DNA of 57,592 nucleotides, taken from positions 1 through 57,592 of the forward strand of contig JAAHHN010000014.1 in assembly GCA_010672165.1 (NCBI GenBank), given 5' to 3'. The notes under the pieces were generated by a model, which ran no database searches, had not been told where the DNA came from, and saw nothing but the letters and a program-made list of their open reading frames with translations. The first letter of the stretch is position 1. Each line of letters begins with the position of its first letter. Below are positions 1-57,592 of this stretch, one piece after another. The stretch comes from Spirulina sp. SIO3F2 (GTDB lineage Bacteria; Cyanobacteriota; Cyanobacteriia; Cyanobacteriales; Spirulinaceae). The translations under genes and the position numbers were made by a program.

Positions 1-1244
1 TCTGTGATCGCGCATTCATGAAGTGCCCGTTTCATCCGTTTAATTGCCGTCGGGCGATCGGGTCCCCACACAATCAACTTGCCAATCAGCGAATCATAAT
101 AGGGGGGAATGTCATAGTCCGGATAAACATGGGAATCCATGCGCACCCCTGGGCCCCCAGGTGGCAGATAGGCTTGGATGCGACCGGGATGGGGCCGGAA
201 ATTATGTTCCGGGTCTTCAGCATTGATGCGACATTCAATTGCATGACCCCTGAGTTCCACATCTCCCTGCCGTAGAGACATCTTTTCACCCTGGGCTATC
301 CGGATTTGCTCGGTGATGAGATCAACGCCCGTGACCATTTCTGTGACTGGATGCTCCACCTGAATCCGGGTGTTCATCTCCATAAAATAGAAATTACCGC
401 TCTTATCCAGCAGGAATTCTACAGTCCCTGCCCCCACATAATTAATCGACTGAGCTGCCCGCACTGCAGCTTTACCCATCTGCTGCCGCAGTTTAGGCGT
501 GAGCACTGGGCTAGGGGATTCTTCGAGTAGTTTCTGGTGACGACGTTGAATTGAGCAATCGCGCTCTCCCAGATGAACCACGTTGCCATGACTATCGGCG
601 AGGATCTGAAATTCCACGTGGCGAGGGGCTTCGAGGAACTTTTCAAGGTATACGCCAGCATTGCCAAAAGCCGCTTCTGCTTCACCCTGCGCCGCCCGGA
701 AGAGTTTGATTAAATCCGCTTCATCGCGCACCAGACGCATCCCCCGACCGCCGCCCCCCGCAGTGGCTTTGAGGATCACCGGATAGCCAATTTTGCGAGC
801 TACCGCGATCGCTTGATTCTCATCGGCCAGCAGACCTTCACTCCCTGGCAACGTGGGAACCTTGGCATTTTGCATCGTTTTCTTCGCCGTGGACTTATCT
901 CCCATCGCCAACATCGCCTCAGGTGTGGGGCCAATAAACACAATCTTATGATCAGCGCAGATCTCAGCAAAGCGGGCATTCTCGGCCAAGAAGCCATAAC
1001 CCGGATGAATTGCTGTGGCATCCCGCGTCAGGGCCGCCGCGATGATATTGGGAATATTGAGATAACTTTTACTGCTGGGGGGCTGACCAATACAGACTCG
1101 TTCATCGGCAAGCTGGACATGCAGCGCCTGCTCATCAATAGTCGAATGCACTGCCACAGTAGAAATGCCCAATTCCTGACAACTGCGGAGAATACGGAGG
1201 GCAATTTCACCCCGATTGGCGATGAGAATTTTAGAGAACTGCAT
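1..1244 (-). CDS. accC: Biotin carboxylase subunit of acetyl-CoA carboxylase (3' end cut by the window)
   Basis: Carboxylates biotin on the carrier protein AccB with ATP and bicarbonate, the first half-reaction of acetyl-CoA carboxylase in fatty-acid synthesis (cytoplasm). About 414 codons are present; the family is near 450 residues, so roughly 35 C-terminal residues lie outside the window. The N-terminus reads [18 protein letters not shown], typical of biotin carboxylases. The ATP-grasp glycine loop [14 protein letters not shown] and the signature [14 protein letters not shown] are intact. The ATG at 1244 is chosen because the conserved N-terminal motif follows it at once. No frameshift is seen. 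The next gene upstream (1308-1589) is on the same strand 63 bp away. Confidence 0.96.
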
Positions 1245-4365: not shown

Positions 4366-4962
4366 ATGAACCCTGATCTGGAGATTCAACGCCTGCGTGA
4401 GCTCTTACCTGCTTCTGGCCGGATGAGAACGGTGATTCGGCCAGCGCGTCAGACGCGGCGGATGATCGATGCTCCGTTTCCAAAACCCTGGCAATGGGGT
4501 GATCGCACGATTTCGATCAATTTCAACCAATGGGCTCAACTTCCGGAACCCGAGCGGGATCTGCTTGTGCTGCGTACAGTCAGTTGGCTGGTGGGGATTC
4601 AATGGTTCAAACCGGATTTGTATCAGAGTTTAGCTGCTGCTGCAACGGGGGGAATACTCTTTGAACTGATTCAGCAGGATGCAGTAGGCATTTTGGTTTC
4701 AGGAGGCTTAGGCGCGATCGCGCTACGCCAGATTTGGCAACAATATCGTTCGCCCGAACGGGAGGTGGATGCCGATACCGCAGCAATCCAAATTGCCCAA
4801 CGGCGTGGCTATGATTTGGATACGGCAGCAGGGAGTCTGCTCTCCGCAATTAAAACAGTTGCTCAACTCGAAGGCCGTTCCAGTCTAAGTTATGTAGAAC
4901 TGCTCCGCTGCCAGAACCTCAAGGCTCAACGCAATCTTCAGTCAGCAACAACATCTCGATAG
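4366..4962 (+). CDS. DUF3318-type cyanobacterial protein
   Basis: A 198-residue protein resembling the cyanobacterial DUF3318 family; function unknown. Visible features are a basic N-terminal region with RPARQTRRMIDAPFPKPWQW, a conserved-looking ERDLLVLRTVSWL segment, and a central hydrophobic stretch (about residues 84-122) with two possible membrane segments separated by QQDAVGI. The C-terminal part contains EVDADTAAIQIAQRRGYD, similar in feel to the substrate side of M48-like metalloproteases, but no HExxH zinc motif is present. The ATG directly follows the TAA of the upstream gene without any spacer, which indicates translational coupling. Confidence 0.8.
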   Translation: MNPDLEIQRLRELLPASGRMRTVIRPARQTRRMIDAPFPKPWQWGDRTISINFNQWAQLPEPERDLLVLRTVSWLVGIQWFKPDLYQSLAAAATGGILFELIQQDAVGILVSGGLGAIALRQIWQQYRSPEREVDADTAAIQIAQRRGYDLDTAAGSLLSAIKTVAQLEGRSSLSYVELLRCQNLKAQRNLQSATTSR

Positions 4963-14400: not shown

Positions 14401-15526
14401 ACTCATCTTCCAGGCCCTACGGGAAGAGTCTGGCCCGGTGCGAGAGGCTGCTGAGCAAATCGTGAGCAACCGCATTCGCCAATCGGAAAACTCTAAACCC
14501 CTGACCCAGCAAGCTTGGCTGAAGATGGAATGCCTTCAGGTGATTATGGGCCATTCCTATTGGGTGCAGACCGTGGCGATCGCCGACGACAATCGCACCT
14601 TGGTCACAGGCAGTAAGGACAGCACAATTAAGACTTGGGATCTCTTTACGGGACAAGAACTGCGCACAATTCGGGGACACAATGCCTCAGTGCTCTCCAT
14701 TGCCCTGAGCCCAGAGAGTGGCAAAATCATCAGCAGCAGCACGGACAACACTATTAAGGTCTGGGATTTTCAGTCTGGTGAGCCGATTCAAGTCATTGAT
14801 GCCACTAAACAGGATCGTCACCACAAAATCTACGTGGTGGCCTTGAGCCCCGACGGCAAGACGCTAATTAGCGCTAGTGCTGAGCAAAGCGCCAAACCCA
14901 AGTTTGAGAATGACTTAGAAGGTTTGCTGAGTTACTTGCCCTCGAAAAGCATTTCGCCCTTGCTGGGTGTGGTGAGCTTTTTCCGGCGATCGCGGGAGAT
15001 TAAACTTTGGGATGTGCAATCGGGCAAGGTGCAGGGTAATCTGCTGGGGTATTCCAAGGGCGTTACCGATCTCGCTGTAACGCCCAAGGGAGATTTGGTG
15101 GTCAGTGGCAGCCGGGACCATACGGTGAAAGTGTGGGATCTCCAAACCAAGCGCACGCTTAACACCCTCTGGGGACATACCGATGAAATCCGCTCTGTAA
15201 CCATTAGCCCAGATGGTAAGACGATCGTGAGTGGCAGCCGCGACAAAACCATTAAGATCTGGGATTTGCGTACGGGCCATGTGCTGCGGACTTTACGGGG
15301 ACATTCTCAATCGGTCACCTCGGTGGCCATTAGCCCCGATGGCAAGACAATCGTTAGCGGTAGTCGTGATGCCACTCTTAAAATCTGGGACTTTGAAACA
15401 GGCGAATATTTAAATACATTGATGGGTCATACAGACTTAATCCGGTCAGTAGCAATCAGCCCCGATGGCCAAACGATCGCCAGCGGCAGCCGAGACAATA
15501 CAATTCGGGTTTGGCGAAGTTTGTAG
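11453..15526 (+). CDS. Large receiver / acidic linker / WD40 protein
   Basis: 1357 residues. Residues 1-120 form a CheY-like receiver with Asp56 (FILLDARLP) and Lys105 (LTKPF), but the second acidic-pocket residue is Ser11 and the usual Thr/Ser switch position is Val, so phosphotransfer signalling may be altered or lost. Residues about 125-930 are a very acidic low-complexity region rich in E, D, P, S and T, with recurring DPFADFE-type motifs. Residues about 940-1020 look helical (VREAAEQIVSNRIRQ). Residues about 1027-1357 hold seven WD40 repeats (SPDGKTIVSGSRDKTIKIWD and similar), one beta-propeller; the third blade carries an insertion. Likely a cytoplasmic scaffold. A 514-codon open frame on the other strand of the linker is a composition artefact. 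Confidence 0.88.
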   Translation: MASHKVLILDSNTADRTHLRQLLPNGNYEIAEAGNGQEGLALIHQERGRIRFILLDARLPQINGWEIVQHLQADPSLDHIPLVMMVEQSDRPQPSTYPFLEVLTKPFNRKQLKQVVKSAIQKAKAAQAQTITAPPSEPIVFEPIPPLEEPQPTIPAPADATPPSPDEDLWSGFHSPHKFPEDFPEEFQQPPELPELPDLSLDGESGDWEAIADTTGDDLEVYTTSDEDQTAVSGLLTPDPPSQPRLDISDAPDELMPATEEISTSADEAVDLAPPETSNIFEVPAVGQFTEESGVSAWDSFVEIEPELPVVEASELADLSLELPELETAIPEGDPFALEPEQATPQSDAATADLTPDSTFEDNDLTQVADFEFDSAFTVPTPASIEPEVAAFSAESPPTESIENPEQDLFESFEADFAATESHGFAEFSPEVDQDTELPTELMMADEALASELPEAIADSVEPESVKDFATETSTSGLSPTTDSLELDSPDSLASNPFVDFEAELRELEQTPLETDASASETVAVPPDSLESEPFTDFELDSASPSDREPVVDADPFELTVETTDEFDPFADFEADFDTPDLAVPEPEPAIEELNDIFTSPDTASETIDPFADFETDFDAPESDPVIEAPETVAESEPVFAPPAETLDTFNPFADPEPESDPEIPDPTSMDLEDLMPTAFMGAATGAAMGAAIASASPAPEELATAATDPPAQDLDEPEHPNEPLKPVGQIEFNPDDRPSPLEPEATLEDIPELTAETTEKLTTEPEDDPFADLDLDSSSNWLNDPQFQVSAEGDGAKPPEIAEVKSDTDLGEPRFEPDASESAESITTDGSEPFALDSDPFAVAEEENTILGDKYHGTIEAVDPEPIASETPSEIDEDNTILSDNRLDSAKTTDTSALEKQLDAALTEEPEYTVLEDKREDGDFAGFAFEDGTKHNQRPLLNEGMVTLRGFEEVKMRFESAITAERIAAMHDAIAYDEPGYQLIFQALREESGPVREAAEQIVSNRIRQSENSKPLTQQAWLKMECLQVIMGHSYWVQTVAIADDNRTLVTGSKDSTIKTWDLFTGQELRTIRGHNASVLSIALSPESGKIISSSTDNTIKVWDFQSGEPIQVIDATKQDRHHKIYVVALSPDGKTLISASAEQSAKPKFENDLEGLLSYLPSKSISPLLGVVSFFRRSREIKLWDVQSGKVQGNLLGYSKGVTDLAVTPKGDLVVSGSRDHTVKVWDLQTKRTLNTLWGHTDEIRSVTISPDGKTIVSGSRDKTIKIWDLRTGHVLRTLRGHSQSVTSVAISPDGKTIVSGSRDATLKIWDFETGEYLNTLMGHTDLIRSVAISPDGQTIASGSRDNTIRVWRSL

Positions 15527-15631
15527 GGTGTTGAATTGGTAAGGAGTTTAAAGTTTAACGTCCGGCAAGGATGCATCGGTTAGAATGCGTGGGAGCTGTC
15601 TAGGATCAATAAACTGCGAACTCATAAACAA

Positions 15632-16744
15632 ATGGGAAATCTTCTTTACCTTCTCCTCGCCTTCATTCCTGTGTCGGTTGCTTCTCACTTTCTCGGCTGG
15701 GGAGAAGCGCTCACGTTTATTACAGCGGGCTTAGCGATCGTGCCCCTTGCCGCCCTGATGGGCACAGCCACTGAAGAAATTGCGGTGGTGGTGGGGCCGA
15801 ACCTGGGTGGCTTACTCAATGCCACCTTTGGCAACGCCACTGAATTGATCATTGCTCTAGTCGCGCTGAATAGTGGCTTATTGGAAGTAGTTAAAGCCAC
15901 AATCACAGGTTCGATTATCAGTAACCTCCTGCTGGTGATGGGCTTTTCGATGCTCCTTGGCGGACTCCTCTACAAAGAGCAAGAATTTCAACCCACCGCT
16001 GCCCGGATGAATGCCTCTTCTATGAACCTGGCCGTTATTGCCCTACTCGTGCCCACAGCAGTGCAATATACCTCCACAGGCGTGGGAGAAGCAGTATTGC
16101 AAAAACTCTCGATCGCGGTCGCCATCATTCTGATCCTGGTTTACATTTTGACCCTGGTCTTCTCGATGAAAACCCATGCCTATCTCTACGATGTGGGGGT
16201 TGCAGACTTAGAACTCTCAGAAGGCGAAACAGCAAGTGCAGGAGAAACCACTGAAGAAGAGGAAAAACCCAACTTCTGGCTCTGGAGTGGCGTGCTATTG
16301 GGCGTCACACTCTTAGTGGCTCTGGAATCAGAATTTCTCGTCGATTCCCTTGAAGTTGCGACCAGCAACTTGGGACTCACAGCACTCTTCACCGGGGTAA
16401 TCCTGCTCCCCATCATTGGTAACGCCGCAGAACATGCGACCGCTGTCACCGTAGCCATGAAAGACAAAATGGACTTGTCCGTTTCTGTCGCGATGGGGTC
16501 AAGCCTACAAATCGCACTCTTTGTCGCCCCCGTTCTCGTTCTGGCGGGCTGGTTCCTGGGTCAACCGATGGATCTGGACTTTAATCCGTTTGAGCTAGTG
16601 GCAGTGATGGTCGCAGTTTTGGTAGCCAATTCCGTGAGTTCTGATGGCAAGTCCAACTGGCTTGAAGGCGGTTTGTTATTGGCGACCTATTTGGTGCTGG
16701 GTTTTGCGTTCTTCTTCCATCCGGTTGTGGCCGGTTTAGGTTAG
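15632..16744 (+). CDS. cax: Calcium/proton exchanger (CaCA superfamily, CAX)
   Basis: Membrane antiporter of 370 residues that exports or sequesters Ca2+ in exchange for H+. It contains both alpha-repeat signatures: GNATELIIALVAL (c-1, near residue 67) and GNAAEHATAVTVA (c-2, near residue 265), with the essential glutamates present. The halves each have about five helices and are separated by an acidic loop (GETASAGETTEEEEKP, near residue 197), the usual acidic-motif position in CAX proteins. Length and topology are normal. It lies 105 bp downstream of the receiver/WD40 gene on the same strand and may have its own promoter. Ion specificity is inferred from the family. Confidence 0.93.
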   Translation: MGNLLYLLLAFIPVSVASHFLGWGEALTFITAGLAIVPLAALMGTATEEIAVVVGPNLGGLLNATFGNATELIIALVALNSGLLEVVKATITGSIISNLLLVMGFSMLLGGLLYKEQEFQPTAARMNASSMNLAVIALLVPTAVQYTSTGVGEAVLQKLSIAVAIILILVYILTLVFSMKTHAYLYDVGVADLELSEGETASAGETTEEEEKPNFWLWSGVLLGVTLLVALESEFLVDSLEVATSNLGLTALFTGVILLPIIGNAAEHATAVTVAMKDKMDLSVSVAMGSSLQIALFVAPVLVLAGWFLGQPMDLDFNPFELVAVMVAVLVANSVSSDGKSNWLEGGLLLATYLVLGFAFFFHPVVAGLG

Positions 16745-16750
16745 GAGCGA

Positions 16751-17737
16751 TTAGCGATTTCTAGAGAGTTGAATGGTCTTACCCAAGCGAGCCGAGTCTG
16801 ATGCCGCTTGGGCCACTTCTAGAGCAAAACAACTGGCTGCCGCAGTGGTGTAGAGTGGTGCGTCAGCCTTGAGGTGGTCAACAATATATTGCAGATCCTT
16901 GGCAAAGACCCCCCGACGACTACCAAGCGTTAGCGGTGTTTGTTGTTCACCTTGGGTCAAGATGCCTTGATTGCCCTGAAAACTGAGGCTGCCGCGATCG
17001 CCATGAATAATCAGCGATCGCTCCGACCCTGAAAACCATTCCCCTTTGCCGTAGGTGATCGTTGCAATTAAACCTTGACGAAACCGGAGTTGAGCTGAGC
17101 ACAAACAAGCTCGGTAATAGGGCGTGTCTGGAATATCTGCAAACTGCGCTTGACAACTCACCTGGGCAACCTCCCCAAAGAGATCGACAAAGCGGTTGAG
17201 TCGTGAGAGGGCAGCCATTAGGGGAAAGCCAAATTCCTGGTGGTGATAATTCCAGCGACGGGAGACGGGTTGTTTGGGGCTAAGGGTGGTGTATTGGGCA
17301 TAGATGGGGCGACCAAGGCTGGGTAGATGCTGACGCACGGTTTGGTGCAAGCTCCCAAGCAGTTCGATATGCTCCACATGGAGCAAGCGCTGCTGGGTCT
17401 GGGCAAGGGCAACAAGTTCACGGGCGAGTTGAATATCTAGCGCCAGCGGATATTCACAGACAACATGCAGACCAGTGGTTAAGGCCGCATGGGCAATGAT
17501 GCCATGGAGATGATTGGCATTGGCGATGATCACCAAATCTAGGGGACGATGCTGGAGCAAGGCAGACCATTGATCGTAATGGGCTGCTTGATGGTGGGGA
17601 TCAAGAGTCAAACAGCGATCTAGGCTATGGCTGGCGATCGCCACGACCTGAGTTGCTGGGGTGGTCTGGAGCGATCGCCAGCGTTTTTGGGCAGCATAGC
17701 CCGTACCAATAATTCCGATCTTCAGTGGGGACAACAA
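16751..17737 (-). CDS. bvdR: Biliverdin reductase (Gfo/Idh/MocA fold)
   Basis: Predicted to reduce biliverdin to bilirubin with NADPH. The 328-residue protein begins with a Rossmann dinucleotide motif GIIGTGYAAQKRW. The middle carries HVEHIELLGSLHQTVRQ, RWNYHHQEFGFPL, and AALSRLNRFVDLFGEV, which closely match, from memory, the BvdR of Synechocystis rather than generic sugar oxidoreductases of this fold; the C-terminal HGDRGSLSFQG and GSRRGVF also fit. In cyanobacteria the enzyme influences phycobilisome assembly or bilin supply. It is transcribed away from petF, with a 385-bp shared upstream region, and its 3' end meets cax at 6 bp. A generic Gfo/Idh oxidoreductase is the alternative. Confidence 0.85.
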   Translation of the reverse strand: MLSPLKIGIIGTGYAAQKRWRSLQTTPATQVVAIASHSLDRCLTLDPHHQAAHYDQWSALLQHRPLDLVIIANANHLHGIIAHAALTTGLHVVCEYPLALDIQLARELVALAQTQQRLLHVEHIELLGSLHQTVRQHLPSLGRPIYAQYTTLSPKQPVSRRWNYHHQEFGFPLMAALSRLNRFVDLFGEVAQVSCQAQFADIPDTPYYRACLCSAQLRFRQGLIATITYGKGEWFSGSERSLIIHGDRGSLSFQGNQGILTQGEQQTPLTLGSRRGVFAKDLQYIVDHLKADAPLYTTAAASCFALEVAQAASDSARLGKTIQLSRNR

Positions 17738-55270: not shown

Positions 55271-56617
55271 TCAAAGTTTGCCAAACCGCACCTTCAAGTC
55301 ATCTCTCGGCCGCGGTGTCGGCACAACCATTAAGCTCAAATCCTGATCTGGTAATAACTCCCACTGGTATTGCCGCAACAACAATGCGGCAAACACCTTT
55401 ATTTCTAAACGCGCAAACTCTTTACCGAGGCATTCCCGCATCCCGCCACCAAAGGGTACATGGCTAAAGGGTGGGCGCTTCTCGTCTTGGTGTTCCAGGT
55501 TAAAGCGCTCCGGGTCAAACTGCTTGGGGTCAGGGAACACTGCTGCATCGTAATGAGTTTGGTTGATTTCGTACAATACGCCCCACCCCTCTGGAATGCG
55601 ATAGCCACCATAGTCGCAATCTTGGAGCACGGTACGAAACCCGCCCCCCACAGGGGGAATAAACCGCAGCACCTCTTTGAGGATCTGCTCCAGGTAGGTC
55701 ATGCTTTTCAGGGTTTCGAGCGTCAGAGGTTGATTTTGGAACTGTTTTTGCTCAGCACGAGCCGCCGCTAGTTGCTCCGGGTGCTGGGCCATCGTGAGGC
55801 AAAAGGCTGCTAAGGCAGAGGTGAGGGTTTCGTGGCCGGCGAACAGCAACAGCAGCACTTGATCTTTGAGTTCTTCCACTGTGAGCCGTTCGCCGTTTTC
55901 ATCTTCGGCGGTGAGCATAATGCCCAGCGCATCGTCGGCCGGAGCGCTCTCCTCAGAACGTTGGGTTTGACGATCGCGGATCAGTCGCTCTAGTTCAGTC
56001 AAAATTAGCCGCCGCGATCGATATGCTTTGCCAAACCGTGTCCAAGGCAGATTAAGGGGAATGGAAAAGAGTCCTTGTGACCAGATTTCAAACCAATGGC
56101 CCAAGGGCGTCTCGGATGCGTTGGTCAACCCCATAAAAAGTTGACCTGCCACATCAAAGGTGTAATGGCGCAGTTCAGGGAACCAAGCCAATGTGCCTTG
56201 GGTGAGCCAGCGATCGCAATAGCGTTGGGTAATCTGCTCTAGGGTGGGAATGTATTGTTCGAGAGCGCGGGGGGCAAAGGCTTGCACCAGCAGTTTACGG
56301 CGTTGGGCGTGGATGCCGCCTGTTTGCAATGCGAGGGAGAGGGGGCCAAGCAGTTGTTTGACGCTGGGGGGCCAACTGACCTGGAAGTATTTGTTCTCGT
56401 TGGTGAGGACGAAGCGATTGGCTTCGGGGCCTTTGAGGACGATGGTGGGGCGACCGAGGAGTTGGGTTTTGAAGATTGCACCGTAGCGATCGTGGCGCTT
56501 TTGGGCAAATTGGCGATCGCCAAAGAATTCGAGGGTTTCTCCGAGGAAGGGTAGACCGAGGGAACCGGGCGGTGTGGGGAGAGGGGCGGCGTTCACCATT
56601 GCTGCGATATCATCCAA
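55271..56617 (-). CDS. Cytochrome P450, CYP120-like
   Basis: 448 residues. The I-helix reads LLFAGHETLTSAL, the ExxR helix EVLRFIPPVGGGFR, the PERF region FDPERFNLEHQ, and the heme loop FGGGMRECLGKEFARLE with the cysteine ligand. The whole protein closely follows, from memory, Synechocystis CYP120A1, which hydroxylates retinoic acid and related retinoids. It may act on carotenoid-derived apocarotenoids here. The first 20 residues are variable; an ATG at 56599 is an alternative start. The promoter must lie in the 74 bp between this gene and the CRISPR array. Confidence 0.9.
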   Translation of the reverse strand: MDDIAAMVNAAPLPTPPGSLGLPFLGETLEFFGDRQFAQKRHDRYGAIFKTQLLGRPTIVLKGPEANRFVLTNENKYFQVSWPPSVKQLLGPLSLALQTGGIHAQRRKLLVQAFAPRALEQYIPTLEQITQRYCDRWLTQGTLAWFPELRHYTFDVAGQLFMGLTNASETPLGHWFEIWSQGLFSIPLNLPWTRFGKAYRSRRLILTELERLIRDRQTQRSEESAPADDALGIMLTAEDENGERLTVEELKDQVLLLLFAGHETLTSALAAFCLTMAQHPEQLAAARAEQKQFQNQPLTLETLKSMTYLEQILKEVLRFIPPVGGGFRTVLQDCDYGGYRIPEGWGVLYEINQTHYDAAVFPDPKQFDPERFNLEHQDEKRPPFSHVPFGGGMRECLGKEFARLEIKVFAALLLRQYQWELLPDQDLSLMVVPTPRPRDDLKVRFGKL

Positions 56618-56691
56618 TGCATTGACTGGGAGCTATGATAGCAGTCTGTTTCACACCACATTCATGAGTGATTCATTCCTTGGGCATGTTC

Positions 56692-57436
56692 GTTTCAATC
56701 CCTCATAGGGATAAATATTGGTTGGAACCCAATGCCATTGGTCAGGCATCGCCCAATCACTCTCGTTTCAATCCCTCATAGGGATAAATATTGGTTGGAA
56801 CATCAGTCTATCCAGGATGCAGCAGAGCTAGCCAGTTTCAATCCCTCATAGGGGTAAATATTGGTTGGAAACTGGGTGTTTGTGGTCTCGAAACCGTTGG
56901 ACTTTGTTTCAATCCCTCATAGGGATAAATATTGGTTGAAACCTCCGCAGCCACCTGGCAGGCAAAGACGTTGAAGCCTTCCTGTTTCAATCCCTCATAG
57001 GGATAAATGTTGTTTGGAACTCCAATCGGCTGGTAAGCGCTCGGTAAAATCTCCAGTTTCAATCCCTCATAGGGATAAATGTTGTTTGGAACAGTCCTTG
57101 TTTAAGGGATAGGAGATATGTATGAGTGTTTCAATCCCTCATAGGGATAAATGTTGTTTGGAACAAGCCATATTACCGATTGTGCCAAGAGCTAAATAGT
57201 TTCAATCCCTCATAGGGATAAATATTGGTTGGAACATCGCTTCATACAATGCCCAAAGCGTTTTTCCAGGTTTCAATCCCTCATAGGGATAAATATTGGT
57301 TGGAACAAATAAAACAAGGTGAGCGGGATATATCCAATAAGTTTCAATCCCTCATAGGGATAAATATTGGTTGGAACGGCTGCTGCCGCTTCGGTGGGGC
57401 GCAAACCATAGTTTCAATCCCTCATAGGGATAAATA
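56692..57436 (-). CRISPR. CRISPR array: ten full repeats and one truncated, ten spacers
   Basis: Repeats of 37 bp start GTTTCAATCCCTCATAGGGA and end TTGGTTGGAAC on the plus strand. They begin at 56692, 56765, 56835, 56906, 56984, 57056, 57128, 57199, 57270 and 57341; the eleventh (57411) stops after 26 bp at 57436. Spacers are 33-36 bp except one of 41 bp (56943-56983). Repeat 3 has two changes and repeat 4 one; repeats 5-7 share the variant ATGTTGTTTGG. Read on the minus strand the repeat ends GGGATTGAAAC after an ATCCCT/AGGGAT hairpin, the common place for Cas6 cleavage, so I infer minus-strand transcription. No cas gene is in the window. Confidence 0.97.
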
Positions 57437-57445
57437 CAGCCCTTT

Positions 57446-57592
57446 TCAAATAGATGAGGAGCAGTAACAACAGTGAGAAAACCAGTTTTGGATATCTTCT
57501 GTAGTGACCGAACCTAAAGATTGCTCGATAGCATCTACCAAGTCAGCATATGTCCTGGGTTCAAGTTTGTTGAGCTTTGATTTCATTTGTGA
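57446..57592 (-). CDS. C-terminus of an IS630-like transposase (5' end beyond the window)
   Basis: 48 codons and a TGA are visible. The end reads KLEPRTYADLVDAIEQSL then TTEDIQNWFSHCCYCSSS, which resembles, from memory, the C-terminus of cyanobacterial IS630 transposases (an RTY..L..AI segment, then W.THCCYC). The gene would run in from the right edge on the minus strand and stop 10 bp from the cut CRISPR repeat. A short independent ORF starting at an ATG near 57586 is the alternative but is less likely. Confidence 0.72.
   Translation of the reverse strand, partial: SQMKSKLNKLEPRTYADLVDAIEQSLGSVTTEDIQNWFSHCCYCSSSI

Follow-up and report, generated by a model that had tools for sequence, protein, structure and literature searches.

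An insertion element, here called IS-A, has very probably inserted in a leader-side repeat of an orphan CRISPR array, probably of type I-D, separating ten spacers from their leader. The array lies at the right end of contig C46 of Spirulina sp. SIO3F2, which makes up the whole stretch of DNA analysed (the window, bases 1-57592) and belongs to a fragmented assembly of 453 contigs and 7.3 Mb. IS-A would have entered at the TA at repeat positions 25-26 (plus-strand numbering), and the ten trailer-side spacers would have been severed from the leader, so that the piece of array in the window would no longer take up spacers and would have lost its normal promoter.

The interrupted array and its cut repeat

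Ten complete 37-nt repeats start at positions 56692, 56765, 56835, 56906, 56984, 57056, 57128, 57199, 57270 and 57341. They are regularly placed and nearly identical, and the spacers between them (33-41 nt) are unique and evenly sized, as in a CRISPR array; no spacer resembled another among the 62 pooled from this array and those of contigs C148 and C427 described below. The repeats occur as two variants, GTTCCAACCAATATTTATCCCTATGAGGGATTGAAAC and GTTCCAAACAACATTTATCCCTATGAGGGATTGAAAC, and two more repeats carry one or two changes. Of the eleventh repeat only the first 26 bases are present; they match the commonest repeat at 26/26 positions, end GGGATAAATA and are followed directly by the IS-A terminus, in agreement with the first-pass annotation, which had placed a cut at a TA after 26 bp of this repeat. 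The cut copy folds into the same hairpin (-6.3 kcal/mol) as the complete repeat. The features are collected in Table 1.

Table 1. Features of the array and of the junction with IS-A in the window
Feature	Position	Strand	Remarks
Ten complete 37-nt repeats and the nine spacers between them	56692..57377	(-)	Predicted crRNA sense
Tenth spacer, between the last complete and the cut repeat	57378..57410	(-)	Most leader-proximal visible spacer
Eleventh repeat, cut	57411..57436	(-)	26 nt left; hairpin ATCCCT-ATG-AGGGAT and 3' tag kept
TA target dinucleotide at the junction	57435..57436	none	TA at 22/22 copies of the terminus
IS-A 3' terminal 156 bp	57437..57592	(-)	22 copies in the assembly; contig stops within the element
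IS-A transposase, C-terminal part (orfB type)	57446..57592	(-)	Reads towards the array; stop at 57446-57448

Between 56692 and 57410 the two repeat variants (ATATTT and ACATTT types) stand in blocks, in the order A-B-A from trailer to leader, and the C148 array has B followed by A; a fusion of arrays, or a leader-proximal repeat that was replaced, might account for such mixing in blocks. Neither variant had an exact copy in the named genomes that were scanned, and 24-nt pieces from two of the ten spacers had no match in IMG/VR. When the array region was compared by blastn, weak matches appeared in seven phage and nine plasmid records; in the two phage records inspected they were repeat-like, except for one weak 14-nt spacer match, and the plasmid record inspected was that of the Gloeocapsa IS630 element compared below. 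The stretches read of Nostoc phage YongM and Microcystis phage MaMV-CH01 each hold two copies of a sequence resembling the repeat start (about 95% over 19-21 bases), much as in mini-arrays carried by phages.

IS-A and its insertion sites

All 22 copies of the IS-A 3' terminus begin at the same point with a TA directly before it, which identifies 57436/57437 as a true element boundary rather than a chance divergence of the repeat. Over the 156 bases 20 of these copies are identical, the other two differing at one and two bases. The 5' ends start with TAGCCTTTTCC in 21 of 22 cases (the remaining one differs by a few bases), and this start is the inverted counterpart of the 3' end CAGCCCTTTTC. 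Aligned without gaps, the termini CAGCCCTTTTCAAATAGATGAGG (3') and TAGCCTTTTCCACAAATATGAGG (5') are identical at 17 of 23 positions, as terminal inverted repeats. As in IS630 elements, a TA lies on both sides, preceding 22/22 of the 3' ends and following 22/22 of the 5' ends. In four other copies, the left and right flanks could be joined into open frames with a single TA kept; these were the four left flanks of 22 that found a partner, each of them uniquely (only one of the 22 right flanks fitted that well). On the basis of the TA at the flanks of both ends and of the four rebuilt empty sites, IS-A behaves as a TA-specific insertion element, and the earlier proposal that an IS630-like element had inserted at TA is supported as far as the ends allow. 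Since its 22 copies are nearly identical at each end, the element has probably been active recently. A reverse transcriptase gene is among the sequences split by IS-A. Its halves, on contigs C244 and C98, match successive parts of RVT_1, 41-104 (a weak match, E 0.0086, below the strength of Pfam's cut-off) and 119-195 (E 9e-10).

The minus-strand frame that enters the window from the contig end stops nine bases inside IS-A. An IS630-like transposase 3' end had been predicted ten bases beyond the junction; the IS630-like C-terminus stood, and the gap had to be corrected to nine. The final 48 residues were compared with a Gloeocapsa protein annotated as an IS630 family transposase, and 46 of them could be aligned to its C-terminus (37% identity, E 9e-11). 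In a search of all plasmid records, 20 contained a match to this transposase end, all below 60% identity, and among the 12 displayed, five bear the annotation 'IS630 family transposase'. Neither Pfam nor NCBIfam recognized the 48-residue end. A search with the Gloeocapsa orfA protein revealed an orfA-like N-terminus at 22 contig ends (E 0.009 each), and IS-A probably has a two-ORF layout, as in its relatives; the sole NCBIfam match of the 37-residue N-terminus was far below the cut-off, and none was to an IS630 model. The element is represented by its two ends alone, and any DDE core would lie in the unassembled middle. Among 98 other genomes from the same family or order, 15 had termini related to those of IS-A, and a search of viral contigs with the transposase end yielded four distant relatives (37%).

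Type I-D genes, leader side and a second cut array

The type I-D gene set of this genome (cas3', cas10d, csc2, csc1, cas6, cas4, cas1 and cas2) is located on contig C427 and not beside the interrupted array; the only cas1 match and the only PF10040 Cas6 match of the genome are both there. The cas2 stop is followed by 227 bases and then by 35 repeats, GTTCGAATCATTATGTATCCCTATGAGGGATTGAAAC, oriented with the cas genes. The repeat of the interrupted array, read on the minus strand, is identical to this one in its last 22 bases and at 11 of the first 15. It shares the polarity and the repeat end of the cas-adjacent array; by analogy, the leader is expected on the right and the crRNA from the minus strand, and the first-pass annotation was thus supported in looking for the leader on that side. 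The other CRISPR system that we found, of type III-B, has an unrelated repeat, and the orphan arrays are for this reason best assigned to type I-D, a putative assignment based on repeat comparison. The type III-B genes are on C414 (7115-14698), next to a 25-copy array (15072-16825); Cmr2 and Cmr4 scored above the NCBIfam cut-off and Cmr3 and Cmr6 below it. On C427, a solitary 20-base repeat core, TTTCAATCCCTCATAGGGAT, was observed at 4659-4678, between cas3' and the genes that follow, in the orientation opposite to that of the C427 array; it could be a relic, or a mini-array making a regulatory crRNA-like RNA.

In a second orphan array, on C148 (8701-10255), one degenerate copy is followed by 18 complete repeats that belong to the two variants named above. 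The last, leader-side repeat of this array is interrupted half-way through the hairpin, at CTCATA, by another element (IS-B) at the contig end, and half of the hairpin is lost. Counting C148, IS-B is matched at 15 places in the assembly, two of them short. Its boundary reads ATACC in the 12/12 places inspected, in which the TA is constant and the exact terminus not fixed, and its ends differ from those of IS-A. The ORF of IS-B reads away from the array. Its first 37 residues had no match in NCBIfam and matched 12 plasmid records, two annotated as IS630 family transposase, two as putative transposase, four as helix-turn-helix and two as hypothetical proteins, with two unannotated; judging by the annotations of these proteins, IS-B is probably IS630-like. 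C148 was also considered as the missing half of the array in the window, and was rejected: it has the same polarity, lacks the same side and bears different element ends, which makes it a second cut array.

Under uniform insertion, the number of insertions expected in the two arrays would be 0.008 for IS-A and 0.005 for IS-B, on the assumption that 22 and 14 insertions took place independently and with equal chance at every TA site, the TA density being that of the window. These figures are an illustration and not a test, for they ignore the dispensability of arrays, and the second array was noticed after the first. That two elements cut two orphan arrays at a TA of the leader-side repeat is more than uniform insertion gives, and we consider it mildly unusual. 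It might be imagined that orphan I-D arrays in this lineage are disabled on the leader side by IS630-family elements favouring the TA of the palindromic repeat, perhaps both through one shared leader region, although we hold this to be improbable. If it were true, the two arrays would once have faced each other across a single leader region, and two insertions would have removed both from its control at once.

Origin of the cut and comparison with known systems

After a simple insertion with both sides assembled, one of the 22 IS-A 5' flanks should begin with TATTGGTTGGAAC. The remainder of the repeat, TTGGTTGGAAC, which had been predicted to lie beyond the element, was found at none of the 22 opposite IS-A ends, and neither exact pattern search nor BLAST disclosed an array-like copy elsewhere in the assembly. 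By the refuting condition set in the first-pass annotation, this speaks against a simple, intact right half. It also weighs against the preferred explanation as it stands, since simple insertions should leave both halves, as the four other IS-A copies do. An exact pattern search located the TATTGGTTGGAAC string at 11 places in the two arrays and at one in unrelated DNA; the latter, on C434 (27.7 kb), was discarded, as the 351 bases around it show neither a repeat nor an element end. With the repeat as the query, BLAST returned, besides the array in the window, that of C148, the related one of C427, the 20-base C427 piece and otherwise weak matches only. The 245 bases before the C427 array, used as a query for a second copy of its leader, gave none among the 40 of 84 first-look candidates that were scored, other matches having E values of 0.03 or worse. 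A sample of 15 contigs between C295 and C323 comprised 13 of 2.8-3.6 kb (the smallest 2,791 bp) and two of more than 38 kb, which suggests that the assembly had a contig size cut-off. A short leader-side piece between two insertions may be absent from the assembly for that reason, and the missing remainder does not refute the insertion.

The absence of the remainder from all 22 opposite ends, and of anything array-like from the rest of the 7.3 Mb, would also be explained if, after the insertion, an event such as recombination between IS-A copies had removed the leader-side half or carried it elsewhere, and the element were now followed by unrelated DNA. Neither orphan array has its leader side in the assembly, and the many near-identical copies of IS-A offer a substrate for recombination. 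On the other hand, a short leader-side piece might have been filtered out, as the size of the smallest contig seen indicates, and only four of the 22 left flanks could be paired, the true partner of the one in the window not being among them. We regard a later loss of this kind as possible, though not as the likelier course; it refines the preferred explanation, with which it has the insertion in common as a first step.

That the repeat and the element were misjoined by the assembler appears very unlikely. The contig does end inside a 22-copy repeat of a fragmented assembly, but the junction is 156 bp inside the contig and conforms, like the other 21 copies, to the TA rule, and the repeat and IS-A share nothing but TA, so that no long shared word can lie behind a misjoin. 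Least likely of all is that the array is transcribed from the plus strand with its leader on the left, in which case nothing important would have been cut. No point in support of it was found, and it is opposed by the polarity of the cas-adjacent sister array and by the degenerate repeat at the left end of the C148 array, where a trailer should have one. Moreover, about 75-105 bp separate the first repeat in the window from the possible starts of a minus-strand P450 gene to its left, less than the 202-220 bp given for cyanobacterial type I-D leaders, with their promoter and adaptation motifs, in the available portion of PMC10212523. When this P450 gene was used to seek a relative with an uncut locus, the best relatives were about 60-64% identical; its named relatives, together with the type I-D genes, mark the assembly as cyanobacterial.

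Under the preferred explanation, insertion of IS-A in the leader-side repeat, transcription of the array from the transposon is possible, as the geometry allows it. In the cyanobacterial type I-D systems, Cas6 cleavage takes place behind the stem-loop and gives rise to an 8-nt tag (parts consulted of PMC10212523; the tag also in those of PMC3575380). Both the Cas6 hairpin and the 8-nt tag are preserved in the cut repeat, and the transposase gene, whose stop is only nine bases from the end of IS-A, is directed into the array; read-through from the element is therefore a candidate route to usable crRNAs from all ten spacers. By analogy with those systems, processing of spacer 10 and of the nine that follow it would be possible if they are transcribed. 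Within 56600-57592, the minus strand showed no terminator-like site, and neither strand a promoter-like one. With its processing hairpin spared and the transposase reading into it, the array is a clean natural example of one that may live on without a leader. It also indicates that a burst of insertion sequences can freeze parts of the CRISPR memory and yet leave the gene set of the cas locus complete, and it raises the question of whether old spacers can stay in service under a transposon promoter.

The closest likeness to the element itself is an IS630 element on plasmid pGLO7428.01 of Gloeocapsa sp. PCC 7428, which has a terminus like that of IS-A (80% over 55 bp), the transposase C-terminus at 37% identity already mentioned, and an orfA/orfB layout to which the orfA-like N-terminus at the IS-A 5' ends corresponds. 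Unlike the window, the stretch of the plasmid inspected has no annotated CRISPR array. As for the array, Synechocystis CRISPR1, of type I-D, is similar in its 37-nt repeat ending GAAAC, its hairpin with the 8-nt tag and the cas set (PMC3575380 and PMC10212523, in the parts consulted). It differs in that the cas genes of our strain are on another contig, and the repeat in the window is related, but not identical, to that of the cas-adjacent array. The open-access literature on arrays interrupted by insertion sequences or transposons, cyanobacteria included, did not reveal this exact case in the portions covered, and those of PMC5853447, PMC3718332 and PMC10333696 contain none like it. A transposon insertion is drawn in a CRISPR region of Sulfolobus islandicus, according to a figure legend of PMC2946923. 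The nearest parallel, as far as the excerpts of the two papers tell, is IS6110, described within a CRISPR direct repeat adjoining a spacer in the Mycobacterium tuberculosis complex (PMC4880099) and in the DR locus of 79 of 81 M. bovis strains (PMC9260277). In both IS6110 and IS-A an insertion sequence sits within a CRISPR repeat or locus, whereas the IS family, the host and the CRISPR type are others, and the far side of the element in our contig is unassembled. The insertion of an IS into CRISPR repeats is thus already known, and the array described here is a new example of that event.
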